DNA from: Nostoc sp. TH1S01
GTDB lineage: Bacteria > Cyanobacteriota > Cyanobacteriia > Cyanobacteriales > Nostocaceae
Length of the DNA stretch: 62,739 bases
NCBI GenBank assembly: GCA_018993265.1
Contig: JAGKSW010000025.1
Coordinates: 1 to 62,739, forward strand
Direction: 5' to 3'
Shown here piece after piece: positions 49,927-58,443 of the stretch. A program made the position numbers and the translations under genes. Each line of letters begins with the position of its first letter. Position 1 is the first letter of the stretch. The notes under the pieces were generated by a model that saw nothing but the letters and a program-made list of their open reading frames with translations, made no database searches and was not told where the DNA came from.

Positions 49927-50394
49927 ATGCAGCAGATGAAGAAACTATTTAAAAGTATTTTAGGATTAAGCACTGATGAAGGCTTTATGCACGTCATCGA
50001 ACACATCGAGGTAATAGTTTCTAAAGTTCTATCTGTTTTAATGGTACTGGTAATTTTGGTAGCGATCGGAGATTTGGGAGTTTTCTTGCTTAGAGAACTT
50101 TTTGATACTCCTTATGGTAAATTCAATACAACATTATTTAAGATATTTGGATTATTTTTGAATATTTTAATTGCTTTAGAAATTTTAGAAAATATAACTG
50201 CTTATTTACGCAAACACGTTTTTCAGGTTGAATTAGTTATTGTAACTTCTTTAATTGCTGTAGCTCGCAAAATTATTATTCTTGATTTAGAAAAAGTTTC
50301 TGGAATTGATATAATTGGTTTAGGTATTGCTATTCTAGCTTTATCAATCAGCTATTTAATCATTCGTGCTAGTAATTATAATAAATCTCATTAA
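49927..50394 (+). CDS. PsiE-family membrane protein
   Basis: A 155-residue protein with four predicted membrane helices. It resembles the phosphate-starvation-inducible PsiE family: GFMHVIEHIEVIVSKVLSVL, LLRELFDTP, an ILIALEILENITAYLRKHVF helix and VELVIVTSLIAVARKIIILD. The function of PsiE is not known. It is inserted between narB and narM, 196 bp after narB. Two starts are possible (49927 or 49936). The name should not be taken to mean phosphate control here. Confidence 0.82.
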   Translation: MQQMKKLFKSILGLSTDEGFMHVIEHIEVIVSKVLSVLMVLVILVAIGDLGVFLLRELFDTPYGKFNTTLFKIFGLFLNILIALEILENITAYLRKHVFQVELVIVTSLIAVARKIIILDLEKVSGIDIIGLGIAILALSISYLIIRASNYNKSH

Positions 50395-51660: not shown

Positions 51661-52002
51661 GATGGATAATTTTACATTTTGTCAATTCCTCAAACTGTGG
51701 CAAATACTACTATAAATTCCAGCAATGACTGGACATTTTTTGGCTGTAGACTTTCCAGAAGATAAGATTTAATGTAATGTGAGAAATATTTCCTAGCAAA
51801 TAGGCACATAAGATACTCCAAATAGCCAGGATGCTTGTCAATATTGAGTTAGATAATTTTAAATTTTATATGAGAAAATTTTGAATTTCTTAGCAGAGAG
51901 TAAAGCTATAGTGGATTTAGCAATTCTGCTGTTAGTATGGCTGAGGTTAAGTCATCCTGCCAGAATATCTTATGAATTAGTTTGGGAAGACACTCTAACT
52001 CG

Positions 52003-53382
52003 ATGACAGGCAAAAACGCAAGACATAACGCTTTTCTGCGGCTGGTGTCTGGTAATGCAGCAGCTTTTGGCTCAGAATCTCGTTACGCGCTACATGCAAG
52101 TAAAGAGATGGTAATTGGACGTGATCCCAGCTGTCAGGTTGTCTTGGATGCCATGATGTATCGAATGGTATCTCGTCGTCATGCTGCGGTTCGCCCTCTC
52201 TCTTCCTCTCCAGACAATAAATTTACTTGGGTAATTTGTGATTTAAATAGTGCTAACGGTACTTATCTCAATGGTAAACGTTTTTATGGATGTCAAGAAT
52301 TACAGTCAGGCGATCGCATTGGTTTAGGTAGTGATGGCCCACAATTTATTTTTGAGTATGACTTGATACCTCAACCTACAATGATGACGAAACAAAGTGC
52401 ATCATTGCCTTCAGCAACTAACTACCAAAACCATACCCAAATTAAGCAGCCTGATTCAGTTAGCTTTACACAACTTTTTCCGATTATTTCTACTGGTAAG
52501 GATTTAACACGTAAGGCTTACCTTGTTCCCGGAATACTTACAGTAGTTTTTGTAGTGCTAATGTTTGCTACTGTTGGCAGACCACAGGCTAATCAAGTTA
52601 TTGTTGCCAGTTACATCGGTTTTGTTGTCTACTATTTTGTTTATCAACTTTGTGGCAAGCAAAAGCCTTGGTGGGTACTGATTGGTACAGCACTGACTAC
52701 AGCTTTAATTTTGCTCAGTCCTATCTTAGACTTATTTATTTTTGTGTTTCGCGGCGTTCTGCCGGGTAACTTACCTTCACCCCAGGATTCTACTACATTG
52801 ACAGAGTTGCTAGTACGAATGTTCTTCGGAGCGGGGTTGATGGAAGAATTGCTCAAGGCATTACCTGTACTAGGAGCGTTTGTACTAGGCAGACAATTGC
52901 CTTCACCGTGGCGAGAACGCATCGGTGTATGGGAACCTTTAGATGGCATCCTCTTAGGAACAGCTTCAGCTTTAGGATTTACACTTTTAGAAACTCTTGG
53001 ACAGTATGTACCAGATATTACACAAAATGTTAGCCAACAGGTGGGTATTGGTGCTGCTGGGCAATTAGCAGGTTTACAATTGCTAATTCCTCGTATTTTA
53101 GGCTCTGTAGCAGGTCACATGGCTTATAGTGGCTATTTGGGATATTTTATCGGTCTGGCTGTTCTCAAACCGAGGAAGAGTTGGCAAATTCTCTCGATTG
53201 GTTATTTAAGTGCGGCTGCACTCCACGCTTTATGGAATGCGACAGGTTCTATTAATGCTTTGTTGTTAGTAATTGTTGGAGTTTTATCTTACGCTGTTTT
53301 AATGGCAGCAATTTTAAAGGCAAGGGCATTATCTCCAACGCGATCGCAAAATTTCGCTACTCGCTTTCTCGGACCTAAATAA
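52003..53382 (+). CDS. FHA domain-PrsW family glutamic intramembrane protease fusion
   Basis: A 459-residue protein. The N-terminal FHA domain (about 20-125) has the phosphothreonine-binding residues in VIGRDPSC, VSRRHAAV and DLNSANGTYLNG. About eight membrane helices follow (from about residue 165), with the PrsW signature GAGLMEELLKALPV (two Glu), a second helix TASALGFTLLETLGQYV, and the His residues in GHMAYSGYLGYF and ALHALWNATG. PrsW enzymes cleave membrane proteins such as anti-sigma factors. A phosphopeptide reader would target the protease to phosphorylated partners. I start at ATG 52003; a TTG at 51982 would add seven residues. Confidence 0.85.
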   Translation: MTGKNARHNAFLRLVSGNAAAFGSESRYALHASKEMVIGRDPSCQVVLDAMMYRMVSRRHAAVRPLSSSPDNKFTWVICDLNSANGTYLNGKRFYGCQELQSGDRIGLGSDGPQFIFEYDLIPQPTMMTKQSASLPSATNYQNHTQIKQPDSVSFTQLFPIISTGKDLTRKAYLVPGILTVVFVVLMFATVGRPQANQVIVASYIGFVVYYFVYQLCGKQKPWWVLIGTALTTALILLSPILDLFIFVFRGVLPGNLPSPQDSTTLTELLVRMFFGAGLMEELLKALPVLGAFVLGRQLPSPWRERIGVWEPLDGILLGTASALGFTLLETLGQYVPDITQNVSQQVGIGAAGQLAGLQLLIPRILGSVAGHMAYSGYLGYFIGLAVLKPRKSWQILSIGYLSAAALHALWNATGSINALLLVIVGVLSYAVLMAAILKARALSPTRSQNFATRFLGPK

Positions 53383-53674
53383 ATATCTTGAAAATTTAGA
53401 AGCTCAGGGGTAGAAGTAGCAATTCTGCTTTCTGCCCGCTTTCTCCTAACATATTCTGATATGAGGTTTGATTAACTCTTAGCTTTTTCTATCTGGAGAT
53501 AGATTGCTTTGTTGGGAAAGTTGCTTTAATTTGAAATTATTCTATGAATCTTCTATCTCAAGAAAGATAATATTTCGTTTTAGAATCGGCACTACAAGCA
53601 CTACATGAGATAGAATCCGGTTCTGAAGGAGATTTAATCTCAGCCAGTAGATCAACAATCACAGCAAATTTTAA
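53383..53674. other. Convergent intergenic region
   Basis: A 292-bp gap between the FHA-PrsW gene and the unknown gene, without gene or array. 53495-53575 contains the loose inverse pair TATCTGGAGATAGA / TATCTCAAGAAAGATA, which may form a weak hairpin. Confidence 0.4.
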
Positions 53675-54322
53675 TTAAGCTTCAGTTTCTAATGTGTCTA
53701 ACTGTCTAAGAGCATAGTAGGCGATCGCAACGCTGACTTTGGCTTGCTCAATTTCCGATAAAGTTGCCCAATCCCGATTTTTAATTTTATTCATCACTGA
53801 TGTGAGGTTTTGCTGTTCGCTACTACGCATCGCATACGCATAAGGGCGAACAAACACTGCTATATCGTCGGTTTCCCATCCAGGTAATACAGTTTGAACA
53901 CATTGCACCAGTCGTTCGCTAATGGATTGTTGTATAGCGGCAACTTCTGTAGCTTTTTGTGCGATCGCATTCAGCCAACCTGTAGGTACTCCAGCAGCAA
54001 AGGTATTCTGTAAAGTTTCACAAAGACTATCTAAAATTCTAATTTCTGTAGTACATTTGTAATCGGCAGAAGTTGCAACTTGAGACCATAAATTATCTAA
54101 CTTTCCGTAAAAAGATTGCGCTCTTGTATGTAGTTCTTCATCCAGCACATCTTGCATAGGAAACTGCTGTTCTAATTCATCAAAATATGCTTCTGATTGA
54201 TCATCAGCAGGATTCCAAGGATAAGCCGCATCTTCAGGTTGTAGCAGTAATTCTAGGAACTCCAATTCTACTTGAGTTGCCGAAGGTGGGACATTGTTGG
54301 AATTGTTTACTTGTTTAATCAT
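53675..54322 (-). CDS. Hypothetical helical protein in the FHA/CHAT cluster
   Basis: A 215-residue protein that I do not recognise. It is predicted mostly helical, with an acidic N-terminal region (ELEFLELLLQPEDAAYPWNP, about 19-38), a central stretch of charged helices (ILDSLCETLQNTFAAGVPTGW) and a C-terminal helix (QAKVSVAIAYYALRQLDTLE). There is no signal peptide, membrane segment or known catalytic motif. It lies 172 bp from the CHAT-FHA gene on the same strand and may be transcribed with it and with the PP2C gene. A cargo or substrate role for one of the proteases is possible but only guessed. Confidence 0.6.
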   Translation of the reverse strand: MIKQVNNSNNVPPSATQVELEFLELLLQPEDAAYPWNPADDQSEAYFDELEQQFPMQDVLDEELHTRAQSFYGKLDNLWSQVATSADYKCTTEIRILDSLCETLQNTFAAGVPTGWLNAIAQKATEVAAIQQSISERLVQCVQTVLPGWETDDIAVFVRPYAYAMRSSEQQNLTSVMNKIKNRDWATLSEIEQAKVSVAIAYYALRQLDTLETEA

Positions 54323-54494
54323 TTTTCGACTCCTGATGAATTATTTAGCAGTACTGACTGCTACAAGTTCTAAATTAGAATTTCCGCAAAAATGAAACTG
54401 ATTTTATTTAGTACTTGAATAAGAAAAATTATGGCGCAGCAAGTATAAAGCACGAATTATAAAATTGATGGCAATTTTTATCCTGAAAGTATGC

Positions 54495-56072
54495 TTAATT
54501 TTCAATAATAAACTCCCAAGTTTCACTGCCGGAATTTCCAAACTTTAGCTTGGCTCCAGATTGTAATGGTACTTCCTCCCGAAGGATTTGTTGCCAGCCA
54601 TTAGATCCTAAACACCAAGTTGTGCCGTAAGTCGAAAGGTCTTGTAAATAGTAAGTTTGGACTGGAGTTGTACCAGTAAAAGTATTCCGACATAAAATTT
54701 CGGCATGACGCTTAGAAACTGATGGTTCGGGAATCACAATATCATTATCTTGGGTGCGCCCAATGCGAGTTACACCTGCTCGTAAAAACCAAGTTCTACC
54801 TCCTGGTGCTAGCGATCGCAAACAAGCTCTAGAAGTAGCAAAATTCACATTGATAATTGAAATATCTGGTAATTCTGTAATTCCTTCATCAAAACTTTTC
54901 ACAAGTTCGCCATCAAACTCTGGATGTAAATACAAAACTGGTAAAGTCCAAGCAGGTTGGTTGAACTTATACAGTGTTAACATTTCTTGCCGAGCTTCTG
55001 CTACAGCTTCATCAATTGGTTTGCGCGATCGCAAAGCTGCCGCAAAAGCTTTAATAAAACTATGACTTTCATGGTCAGCAATGACATCGCGCATTCCCAA
55101 AACGGCTGGTACGCCATGCCTAATTAGTACTTCTGCTAAACTACTAGCTGGAATTGCTTGGTGATTAACTGCTGCTGGTTGCGCTCCCCAACAAGCGTTG
55201 AACACAGCTAATTTTAGTCCACTCCGATTTAATACTTGCGCCAGTTCTATGCCATTGAGCGTCTTGTCAGGACGCAAAAATAACAATCCGCCATCTGGGC
55301 CAGGCAATCCATGACCAGCATAAAAAAATATATTGTACGCTTTAGTTTCTAATTCTTCAATCAACTCTTGGGGTGTTGGTTGAATCAGCGTTTTAACCAT
55401 ACAAGGAGCAAACCCTGAGTAATTGCGGTTGATTTGCGCTTGATTCTCCAGGATCTGCTGCAAGATAGTTGCTTCTTGTTCTAGTTGCAAATTTTCATCA
55501 TGACCTAATACTAGCAAGATATTTAAGGCCTGATCCGTGCGTAAAAATGGCAACGGCTCAACTTCACTAGTGGTACGACTAAACAGCAAGTCCTGAGAAA
55601 GAGAAATCGCTGATTGTCCGGGTTGACGCTGCATAATTTCCCAAGGTAAAGCAATCAAATCTGGATCACGAATTTCGATTTGAAAGCGCAAACGTTTATT
55701 TTGTCCCATCGCAATTCCACAACTGCGTTCGAGACTGCTGAGAATTGGCCCATCAAATACCCAACGCCACAGATACAGCCCCAAATATTGCATCAGACGA
55801 CCGCTATAACCAGGCATTTGACCAGTATTAGCAGAACCTAAGTTCAACGAGAGCGGGTTAGCAGATTGAGGCGCTGTGTTGGCTGTGATATTTAAACCGC
55901 TGTGTCCAGCAAACATTTGCTGCCACTCTTGCCAAACTTGATTTAGTTCGGAAGGCCATACACAGTCACGCAGAACATAGCCACTAGGATAGGGCGCTTT
56001 GACCACCCAAATGGCAAAGCTATCTGTGCCAGTATTGATGAGACGGGCGATCGCTAAGTTCAGGGATGGCAT
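54495..56072 (-). CDS. CHAT-domain caspase-like protease with C-terminal FHA domain
   Basis: A 525-residue protein. The CHAT domain (about 130-385) has the catalytic dyad His254 in FFYAGHGLPG and Cys294 in VFNACWGAQP, with the typical substrate-side motif GVPAVLGMRDVIADH. An FHA domain (about 425-525) follows, with TRIGRTQDND, VSKRHAEILC and DLSTYGTTW. The N-terminal 120 residues are unassigned and may be a sensor or lead-in segment. CHAT proteases occur in bacterial death and defence systems and in signalling. The FHA domain suggests recruitment to phosphorylated proteins. Start ATG 56072. Confidence 0.87.
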   Translation of the reverse strand: MPSLNLAIARLINTGTDSFAIWVVKAPYPSGYVLRDCVWPSELNQVWQEWQQMFAGHSGLNITANTAPQSANPLSLNLGSANTGQMPGYSGRLMQYLGLYLWRWVFDGPILSSLERSCGIAMGQNKRLRFQIEIRDPDLIALPWEIMQRQPGQSAISLSQDLLFSRTTSEVEPLPFLRTDQALNILLVLGHDENLQLEQEATILQQILENQAQINRNYSGFAPCMVKTLIQPTPQELIEELETKAYNIFFYAGHGLPGPDGGLLFLRPDKTLNGIELAQVLNRSGLKLAVFNACWGAQPAAVNHQAIPASSLAEVLIRHGVPAVLGMRDVIADHESHSFIKAFAAALRSRKPIDEAVAEARQEMLTLYKFNQPAWTLPVLYLHPEFDGELVKSFDEGITELPDISIINVNFATSRACLRSLAPGGRTWFLRAGVTRIGRTQDNDIVIPEPSVSKRHAEILCRNTFTGTTPVQTYYLQDLSTYGTTWCLGSNGWQQILREEVPLQSGAKLKFGNSGSETWEFIIEN

Positions 56073-56256
56073 GGGTTCTTTAAATTAAAATGTAGAAACC
56101 AAGGACTTGCGATAATAATTTTCCGTTAGGAAAACTCTTAACCTGGAATTTTTCAATCTGGTTATTATGTATTATTCCAGGCTTCTACAAGTTTATCGAG
56201 TATTTGTCGCATTTTCACTGATATTGTTCTCCCGTAATTGGGCTATACACAGGAGT

Positions 56257-58443
56257 TTATTTATCTGGCAGTTGGGACAAATTTTCACAACTGCTGGCTT
56301 CGTTTGATTTTAATACAGAGATGCCTGGACGTTGGAGTTGAGCTAGTTTTACTCGAAGTGTTTTCTGAGGTTGGGTAGATGCACTATTTTCTGAGGAGCA
56401 AAGTCTCAACTCTACTACAGATTCTTGAGAATTGGGTGTATCACTAGGTTCTGACTCAACGACTTGCAAAAAACTGCCAGGTAGTAACTTCTGATTATCT
56501 AAAGTAATTTCTTGGCTGTTTGTAATTACCCAGCCAGGGGCCAAGTTATTTAGCGATCGCTCGTTAGTTGGAGCAGCAGTAGTTGGCGGTACACTAGGGT
56601 TAGAACCAGTAGGAACTAATGGCGATTGCCAAAGCAGTCCGCGCACCAACAGTCCTAAAGAACCTGCTGCGATCGCTATAATCATTGGCACAATTAAATG
56701 AAGAGGCAGTTGTTGCAAAGAACTAGGCTTATTTTCAGGAATTAAAGTTTTTTGCTCAGAAATATCTTCTAATAAAGTTGGTTGCAGCGGCTTAGGTGGA
56801 ATTTTTGCGGTTGTGGTGCTAGGACGCTCAACAATGGAGGCTTTGAGAGTTAGCTCTGGCTCAACATATTTCACTTGATAATGAACTAGAGCGATCGTCA
56901 CATTATCGTGGCCATTTTTGGTGTTGGCAATTTCCAGCAATTTGTCAGCAACTGTGACTAAATCTGTTTCTTCAGTCAAAATTGGTAAAATTTCTGTTTC
57001 CCAGTATTCTTCCACACGGTCAAAGTCACTTAAGCCATCAGATGTCAGCAAAAACACAGCATCTTCATCCAGAATAAACCGCTGTGCTGTTGGATGTAAT
57101 GCCGCACTAGAACTCATTCCTAATGCCTGAACCAAGGAACCAGAACCACTCTGCTGCACAGCTTCCCGGTAAATGGCATATCCCAAACGTACTTCTCTAG
57201 AAGCAACATCATCATCCAAGGTGACTTGGTAGCAGCCATCGCGGGTAATCCAATAAGCGCGACTATCACCAACATGGGTAATATACATTTCATGAGCCAC
57301 TGGCAATGCCATCACCAAGGTTGTACCCATACGTTTCCTCCCCTGACGATTTTCACTGTCATTGCGCTGGCTGATTTTATCATTAGCAACTGCCACAGCT
57401 TGTTCTAAATCTGCCAGCAGAAGTGAGGGGTCTATATGGTTGTAAGGAACTTTGGTTAGTTGTTGTACTTGTTGCTGAATTGTTTCAATGGCTAAATTAG
57501 ATGCGACATTACCACCTTCATGCCCACCAATTCCATCACAGACAATAGCCAGGGCTGTAGCTTGTGGAGGTTTACTTAACAGTGTCCCACTGGGTGGATA
57601 ACAAGCATCTTCGTTGCGTTGGCGTTTTGGGCCAGTGTCAGTTTTGGTGATAATCTTAATTTTCGGCGATTGTAATTCTCCTAATTCTGCTAATCCGCGG
57701 TCTAACACTGAGATTAGCACTTCCACAGAATTGATTTCTCCCTGAATCAGATAACTACTAACTTGGTTAACAAATTCTGCGATGACTGGTTTGGTATCTG
57801 GTAATAATTGCTGCCAAAATTCTCCTAAATCTGATAATTTCGGTGTTGAGGTGTCAAATCGCAATTCTAACAACCGGACTAAAAGCCCTTCCACCCTTAA
57901 CAAGTGAGTATCAAGTAAGCTAGAAGCAACACCTTCACTGACTAAAGGTTGCCAGAGATGCGCTAATTGCCATAGCCAATTCAGTTGACGCATAGATGTA
58001 GCATTGCGCCAAGCAGTAGTTAACTGGGGACACAACCGTAATTGTGAATCTGTCGTCGGGTCTGTTAATAAGGGTGGTTTTTCTAACAGTAAAATTCCTT
58101 TGCGAGAGCGTCCATCCTTAAGAGGCAGCACTCCATATACCTGCGGTATATGTAAGCTGTAGGGAATTAGCCTCAAATAAGCTCGGATGGTTTGTAAGTT
58201 TTCTGTTTCTAATCCTTGGGGAAGTAATCCAGGCTTAGTATCCAAAACAACAGATTTATTTAGGACTAAGTAGCGATCGGCTAATATTTCTCCAGGACTA
58301 CCCACATTTAGAACATCACCCACAACCCACAGATATCGTTTGGGTATGGGTGTAGAACATCGTTGGCAAAACTTATGAGTCAGGGGATTCGCAGCCTGAC
58401 AAAGTTCATTTGGGCAGTAGAGGGTTGCCGCATCATTTTCCAT
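56257..58443 (-). CDS. PP2C-type Ser/Thr phosphatase with zinc ribbon, membrane anchor and kinase-like N-terminal region
   Basis: A 728-residue protein. A zinc ribbon (Cys10, Cys15, Cys26, Cys29) starts it. Residues about 50-255 resemble a degenerate protein-kinase fold (GEILADRYLVLNK, a hinge-like ILLLEKPPLL, and SLLDTHLLRVEGLLVRLLEL in place of a catalytic loop), with no HRD or DFG. The PP2C domain (about 265-520) has TDTGPKRQRNEDA, VCDGIGGHEGGNVA, HVGDSRAYW and SDGLSDFDR, with metal-binding Asp residues intact. A membrane helix (about 582-603) and a C-terminal region of about 125 residues end it. It would dephosphorylate Thr residues that the neighbouring FHA domains could read. Confidence 0.85.
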   Translation of the reverse strand: MENDAATLYCPNELCQAANPLTHKFCQRCSTPIPKRYLWVVGDVLNVGSPGEILADRYLVLNKSVVLDTKPGLLPQGLETENLQTIRAYLRLIPYSLHIPQVYGVLPLKDGRSRKGILLLEKPPLLTDPTTDSQLRLCPQLTTAWRNATSMRQLNWLWQLAHLWQPLVSEGVASSLLDTHLLRVEGLLVRLLELRFDTSTPKLSDLGEFWQQLLPDTKPVIAEFVNQVSSYLIQGEINSVEVLISVLDRGLAELGELQSPKIKIITKTDTGPKRQRNEDACYPPSGTLLSKPPQATALAIVCDGIGGHEGGNVASNLAIETIQQQVQQLTKVPYNHIDPSLLLADLEQAVAVANDKISQRNDSENRQGRKRMGTTLVMALPVAHEMYITHVGDSRAYWITRDGCYQVTLDDDVASREVRLGYAIYREAVQQSGSGSLVQALGMSSSAALHPTAQRFILDEDAVFLLTSDGLSDFDRVEEYWETEILPILTEETDLVTVADKLLEIANTKNGHDNVTIALVHYQVKYVEPELTLKASIVERPSTTTAKIPPKPLQPTLLEDISEQKTLIPENKPSSLQQLPLHLIVPMIIAIAAGSLGLLVRGLLWQSPLVPTGSNPSVPPTTAAPTNERSLNNLAPGWVITNSQEITLDNQKLLPGSFLQVVESEPSDTPNSQESVVELRLCSSENSASTQPQKTLRVKLAQLQRPGISVLKSNEASSCENLSQLPDK

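Follow-up and report, generated by a model that had tools for sequence, protein, structure and literature searches.

A near-obligate pairing of a CHAT-FHA protease with a 215-residue protein in cyanobacteria suggests a regulated-cutting switch

Results

The genes of the locus

We analyzed a stretch of 62,739 nucleotides from Nostoc sp. TH1S01 (contig JAGKSW010000025.1; hereafter the window), part of a 7.65-Mb genome. Four neighboring genes in it encode a PrsW-type protease with an FHA domain (FHA-PrsW), a protein of 215 amino acids (U215), a CHAT protease with an FHA domain of its own (CHAT-FHA), and a PP2C phosphatase. An original prediction made from the nucleotides had grouped the four together as one system. 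What we find is not a system of equal parts but a near-obligate pair, CHAT-FHA and U215, with PP2C and FHA-PrsW distributed more widely. Domains were called by Pfam, PADLOC, and NCBIfam profile scans with curated cut-offs. The features, in window coordinates, are:

51982..53382 (first ATG at 52003), plus strand: open reading frame of FHA-PrsW, convergent neighbor of U215
53675..54322, minus strand: open reading frame of U215, 215 aa, near-obligate partner of CHAT-FHA
53825..53839, minus strand: AYAMR motif, U215 residues 162-166, ending in Arg166; candidate contact or cut site
54215..54223, minus strand: YPW of the YPWNP motif, U215 residues 34-36, in the N-terminal part, where the model is of low confidence
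54495..56072, minus strand: CHAT-FHA protease, 525 aa (open reading frame and Pfam); an N-terminal portion of ~95 aa outside the HetF match, the CHAT domain at about 101-369, and a C-terminal FHA domain at 435-512
54537..54770, minus strand: C-terminal FHA domain of CHAT-FHA (Pfam)
55191..55193, minus strand: codon of the catalytic Cys294, aligned with the N-S-C Cys of three HetF-like proteins
55311..55313, minus strand: codon of the catalytic His254, aligned with the AGHS His of the same three proteins
56257..58443, minus strand: PP2C phosphatase, 728 aa (open reading frame and Pfam); an N-terminal Cys4 zinc-ribbon-like motif, the region 36-262, the PP2C domain, and a C-terminal hydrophobic segment near 582
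57658..58338, minus strand: PP2C residues 36-262, weakly indicated by hhalign as a possible degenerate kinase-like region

PP2C, CHAT-FHA, and U215 follow one another in series with ~170-190 bases between genes, and FHA-PrsW faces them. The four reading frames lie where they had been predicted, with catalytic residues intact, and U215 does stand between the two proteases.

In CHAT-FHA, the CHAT family (PF12770) scores 70.8 bits against a gathering score of 24, and the FHA family (PF00498) 53.7 against 20.7. The HetF family (NF045509) matches residues 97-394 only, with 140.4 bits, below its cut-off of 1200 over 836 positions. The His254 and Cys294 dyad is His and Cys in 33/33 CHAT-FHA proteins of a broad set. 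Sequence searches of the PDB with CHAT-FHA returned FHA domains plus a small number of weak, unrelated matches, with no CHAT protein and no separase among them. CHAT-FHA is best read as a soluble cysteine protease of HetF-like type, with an FHA domain that is a putative phosphothreonine reader.

Both FHA domains had been said to keep the residues that read phosphothreonine. This stands for FHA-PrsW, where a canonical-looking set (R47, S64, H67, and N92-G-T) is present in 9/9 relatives. It stands less well for CHAT-FHA: R439 is found in 27/33 proteins, S453 in 32/33, and H456 in 33/33, but Tyr or Phe occupies the place where many FHA domains carry the Asn of NGT in 32/33.

FHA-PrsW scores 139 bits for PrsW (PF13367; gathering score 23.5) and 61.7 bits for FHA (20.7), and only 20.9 bits, against a cut-off of 225, for PrsW proper (NF033739). 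Its start Met at 52003 is invariant in 9/9 relatives, as are Glu288/Glu289, Glu337, His379, and His415, which we take to be the catalytic residues. The PP2C protein scores 47.8 bits for PP2C_2 (PF13672; gathering score 24) and falls below the cut-offs of narrower PP2C families (NF033484, 159.8 of 230; NF011149, 254.6 of 374). Asp279, Asp303, Asp469, and Asp513 are invariant in 12/12 proteins, in agreement with the predicted intact metal-binding site.

Gene order in relatives

Close synteny was read from 14 related loci fetched with U215, all from Nostocales or uncultured cyanobacteria. U215 adjoins CHAT-FHA in 14/14. PP2C lies beside the pair in 13, and the remaining locus begins at a contig edge (L010). 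FHA-PrsW faces U215 in 11; two of the other loci (L005 and L014) extend 8 kb beyond U215 without it, a real break on that side, and in the third (L011) the sequence stops 1.6 kb past U215. The genes for NdhM, Npun_R1517, DJ-1, and a nitrate-reductase-associated protein are often retained at the loci of close relatives too. Close synteny therefore says little, and a wider survey was made. The neighborhood is conserved, with its order mostly kept in Nostocales, but it is looser than a four-gene unit.

Beyond FHA-PrsW, the window holds genes for the nitrate-reductase-associated protein (PF09655; 50483-50935) and a PsiE-family protein (49927-50394), which lie near FHA-PrsW in 8 of the 14 loci. Neighbors were also compared as clusters of open reading frames over 40 loci of 29 genomes, with the 22 largest clusters judged by eye and no domain scans. 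The commonest was NdhM-like (9/29 genomes), followed by peptide-deformylase-like, ABC-type ATPase, and probable sensor-kinase families (7 each), and no Ser/Thr kinase cluster was recognized among the 22. The peptide-deformylase-like gene, named from its sequence, lies near FHA-PrsW in its seven genomes (L045:12889-13452, L046:5091-5654, and five more loci). A PADLOC scan of the four proteins for defense systems gave a single match, to PP2C, with an E-value of 0.0051.

CHAT-FHA and U215 occur together

A single set of 291 genomes from the class was searched for all four proteins. U215 is present in 145. CHAT-FHA matched in 148 at E<=1e-50, and in 145 once three weak matches sitting on HetF loci (G010, G093, and G122) were removed. 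Both proteins occur in 143 genomes, U215 only in 2, CHAT-FHA only in 2, and neither in 144, a phi of 0.97 calculated by hand from the corrected table (0.95 before the removal). The genomes with U215 only are G037, a real case, and G285, which is 72% complete; those with CHAT-FHA only are G081, 79% complete, and G182, where the gene lies 142 bases from a contig end. The two matches lie within 5 kb, always on the same strand, in 118/143 genomes; in 4 they share a contig at a distance of 0.55-1.35 Mb, and in 21 they fall on different contigs, some of these perhaps through assembly fragmentation. One stop each interrupts the CHAT matches of G173, G214, G240, and G271 and the U215 match of G015. 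The pairing of CHAT-FHA with U215 is near-obligate and holds even without linkage, and by this co-occurrence CHAT-FHA is a CHAT protease with a conserved partner gene. Among 194 genomes drawn from the phylum, 49 match U215, all 49 from the same family, order, or class (the share of the 194 outside the class is not shown).

The other two genes behave differently. FHA-PrsW is found in 174/291 genomes (E<=1e-40) and is weakly correlated with U215 (phi 0.30): of the 145 genomes with U215, 37 have no match at this cut-off, and 66 genomes that lack U215 have one. The N-terminal region of PP2C is found in 241/291 (E<=1e-15). FHA-PrsW is an accessory neighbor and not an obligate one; PP2C is a frequent neighbor with a wider distribution than the pair. 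These figures bear on the originally predicted system of four parts, in which phosphorylation would recruit both FHA proteases to a shared target and PP2C would reset it. Proximity speaks for such a system, since FHA-PrsW and U215 are convergent within 6 kb in 58 of the 97 genomes with matches listed for both (whenever near, on opposite strands), CHAT-FHA and PP2C share a strand and lie no more than 6.5 kb apart in 82 of the 110 genomes entered, and most Nostocales loci keep the gene order. The wider distributions of FHA-PrsW and PP2C, with the two Nostocales loci lacking FHA-PrsW within 8 kb, nonetheless make it improbable. Chromosomal stability alone, with no functional coupling, is the least probable account of all. 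The flanking genes retained in close relatives are what it would predict, but the pair persists in the 25 genomes where the matches are not near, and is absent as a pair from 144; it is disfavored for CHAT-FHA and U215, and may hold for FHA-PrsW.

HetF offers a comparison. This genome encodes HetF proper separately (G000:C172; 1412 bits, above the family cut-off), and HetF matches at E<=1e-100 occur in 147/291 genomes, 16 of them above that cut-off. CHAT-FHA and HetF disagree in 18/291 genomes, and U215 tracks CHAT-FHA in 18/18: U215 is present in each of the 8 genomes that have CHAT-FHA without a HetF match, and absent from each of the 10 that have HetF without CHAT-FHA. The 8 include incomplete assemblies (G254 83%, G279 69%), in which HetF may have been missed. 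A HetF-like CHAT protease is present, with CHAT-FHA and U215 both absent, in G019, G020, G036, G050, G064, G075, and G086.

U215 and the loss of the protease

U215 has no family match at E<=0.1 in Pfam, PADLOC, or NCBIfam, and its model has no match among PDB folds at E<=0.001. It is mostly single-copy, lacks a hydrophobic segment, and is predicted to be all-helical with low confidence (AlphaFold pLDDT 58.7); the C-terminal half is best conserved. The alignment comprises 171 proteins, 165 from genomes that bear CHAT-FHA and 6 from genomes that do not, with some species possibly present twice. In the YPWNP motif, Y is kept in 156/165, P in 150/165, and W in 151/165, and the DNA pattern that encodes the motif has no second match in this genome. 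The sole Ser or Thr position conserved above 90% is Ser189, directly before a predicted helix (190-214).

Loss of the protease was followed in the family of G037, whose 19 genomes hold both genes in 8, U215 alone in 8 (two truncated), neither in 3, and CHAT-FHA alone in 0; two of the three genomes without either gene are only 74% and 65% complete. G037 and G301-G305 retain the order PP2C, full-length U215, FHA-PrsW, and CHAT-FHA is missing from the space between the first two. In G037 a CHAT remnant lies in that gap (tblastn E 2.6e-8 against the 900-base stretch alone). No CHAT-FHA was found in G307 (84% complete) or G308 (73%), two species of one genus, where U215 is shortened to 97 and 88 aa (L141:3754-4044 and L142:4339-4602), leaving the N-terminal half with YPWN. 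Full-length U215 persists in two genera that lack CHAT-FHA, where it is under purifying selection (dN/dS 0.14-0.32 in four pairs, compared with 0.21 and 0.33 in two pairs from CHAT-bearing genomes).

The position that stands out is Arg166, at the end of the AYAMR motif. One of the 165 CHAT-bearing proteins stops before the motif; in the other 164 this residue is Arg in 164/164. The next residue is G in 71, S in 55, D in 28, N in 8, E in 1, and A in 1, so that G, S, D, or N follows in 162/164. The variable loop from Arg166 to Trp185 measures 10-23 residues in 164/165, and the model places a helix at 151-165 and pLDDT below 50 at 165-173. In the six CHAT-less proteins the same position is Arg in 2, Cys in 3, and His in 1. 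Control positions in the same six are kept: Asp153, Pro160, and Trp185 in 6/6, Arg159 in 5/6, and both Tyr34-Pro35-Trp36 and a basic residue at 195 in 6/6. Within the motif, Met165 is M in 147 and L in 15 of the 165, and becomes T in 3, L in 2, and V in 1 of the six; Tyr163 becomes Q in 3, S in 2, and A in 1. The decay of Arg166 after the loss of CHAT-FHA is a suggestive sign of a link to the protease, not a proof.

Phosphorylation input

The genome has 58 kinase domains above the Pfam cut-off. The earlier statement that no active kinase lies at the locus holds for the genes beside it that were scanned with Pfam. Two proteins elsewhere appear to match both FHA and Ser/Thr kinase: C226 (461 aa; G000:C226:4429-5517) and C144 (437 aa; 62778-63917). 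In each, the kinase and FHA frames are of equal length with neighboring coordinates, apparently one reading frame, which makes the two proteins candidate upstream kinases.

The N-terminus of PP2C may itself be a degenerate kinase fold, for which the evidence is weak. Against 17 kinases of this genome, residues 36-262 align with an hhalign E-value of 0.0097, a score of 25.1, and a probability of only 4%. The score compares with 13.5 +/- 2.1 for 100 column shuffles (highest 21.3) and 14.3 for the reversed control. The alignment runs in the order of a kinase N-lobe and catalytic loop, the HRD-type motif is missing, and the model has a pLDDT of 40.5. Pfam and PDB searches with this N-terminus gave no kinase match, so the region stays a lead.

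Discussion

We read CHAT-FHA as a HetF-like protease whose FHA domain would take a phosphothreonine cue, with U215 as its dedicated partner and most likely its substrate, and we put the probability of this reading at about 0.5. An unlinked Ser/Thr kinase of the genome would make the phosphorylation signal, and the neighboring PP2C would reverse it. On this signal CHAT-FHA would dock on U215 and cut after Arg166, between AYAMR and the G, S, D, or N that follows, at the start of the variable loop. The cut would split off the C-terminal ~50 residues and alter what U215 does. U215 would also have a role that outlives the protease.

Several observations weigh against this reading. The evidence for cleavage of U215 is indirect, being drawn from the Arg166 pattern, and Arg166 could be structural: Arg159, with Pro after it, is equally invariant, and the well-conserved L104, W149, Y163, and M165 have changed in all six CHAT-less proteins as well. 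Those six form one clade, with support of 100/100 and a long stem, so the decay of Arg166 amounts to one protease loss with at least 2 later substitutions. HetF also co-occurs with U215 (phi 0.85), and shared lineage thus explains part of the distribution. Craspase orthologues cut Csx30 at non-conserved sites, between A and S, L and D, or M and K (PMC11106740), so that a CHAT protease need not have an invariant P1. The PDB sequence search reached no separase whose Asp2151 could be set against the S1 pocket. Finally, no Thr of U215 is conserved in the alignment, which leaves the FHA domain without a link to U215 through a conserved Thr. The ligand of the CHAT-FHA FHA domain is therefore unlikely to be such a residue, and the suggestion that phosphorylated U215 recruits a protease loses its footing; the phospho input to this domain is, for its part, a putative one.

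Two other roles for U215 have to be weighed. It might be a securin-like inhibitor, with Arg166 as a pseudosubstrate that sits in the active site and holds CHAT-FHA off until a phospho signal releases it. The invariance of the Arg would suit a pseudosubstrate, the CHAT relative separase is inhibited by securin (PMC9729208), and CHAT-FHA without U215 occurs only in two fragmented or incomplete assemblies, whereas U215 occurs without CHAT-FHA in several genomes. A pure inhibitor should, however, decay once its protease is lost, and full-length U215 is under selection in two CHAT-less genera; we hold this role to be doubtful. Alternatively, U215 could be an adaptor or structural subunit that guides CHAT-FHA to another target, with Arg166 serving in binding or in structure. 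The near-obligate pairing, the conserved C-terminal half with a separate YPWNP motif, and the survival of U215 after protease loss would all suit an adaptor. An adaptor alone leaves unexplained the small residue after Arg166 and the confined length of the stretch before Trp185, and we consider it unlikely. Given the precedents of HetF and PatU3 and of the orthocaspases, with Craspase as a counter-case, we therefore favor a substrate over an inhibitor or an adaptor.

More tentatively, much of the cyanobacteria may have kept, next to HetF-PatU3, a second caspase-like switch that is gated by phosphorylation. In it a CHAT protease guided by its FHA domain would cut its own dedicated regulator, U215, after an invariant Arg, and PP2C, maybe with a kinase-like domain, would reset the signal. 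If true, Ser/Thr phosphorylation, with 58 kinase domains encoded in this genome, would be coupled to site-specific proteolysis. CHAT-FHA is abundant (half of the genomes surveyed), carries an FHA domain and has a mostly single-copy partner, in which Arg166 gives a precise position for mutagenesis. To our knowledge, partners have been identified for few CHAT proteases (HetF-PatU3, Craspase-Csx30, and the gasdermin proteases), none of which is FHA-gated.

Comparison with known systems

The original prediction knew of no described system with these parts, and had called the fusions unusual. For FHA-PrsW this was too strong: PrsW-FHA fusions of the same architecture are already in print (PMC3482391), and nothing in the gene is novel beyond its place. 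For the pair, no description of CHAT-FHA with a near-obligate partner was found in the open-licence PMC literature (subscription papers were outside the scope of that search). In the available parts of an orthocaspase survey (PMC8283722) and of a DGR paper (PMC7517822), CHAT is mentioned and FHA is not. In the orthocaspases, a further family of prokaryotic proteins with the caspase fold, cleavage follows positively charged residues (PMC6426788).

The separase-securin pair is comparable in that CHAT domains are related to separase, securin is an inhibitory partner, and separase substrates have Arg at P1 (PMC9729208), but it is eukaryotic. Craspase, in which TPR-CHAT (Csx29) acts on Csx30, joins a CHAT protease to a dedicated substrate encoded nearby. 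It differs in being activated by RNA-guided gRAMP, and in a cut site that varies between orthologues (PMC11106740). HetF, which cleaves PatU3 (PMC12288457), has the same His and Cys as CHAT-FHA, and its family (NF045509) is the nearest CHAT family among the profiles searched. It is a CHAT protease of cyanobacteria whose substrate is a dedicated regulator (PMC12288457, PMC8406250). HetF, however, carries transmembrane and TPR parts (PMC8406250), is encoded separately in this genome, and diverges in distribution from CHAT-FHA. The FHA-PrsW fusion, then, is known; CHAT-FHA with its near-obligate partner U215, for which the literature searched gave no description, suggests a regulated-cutting switch.

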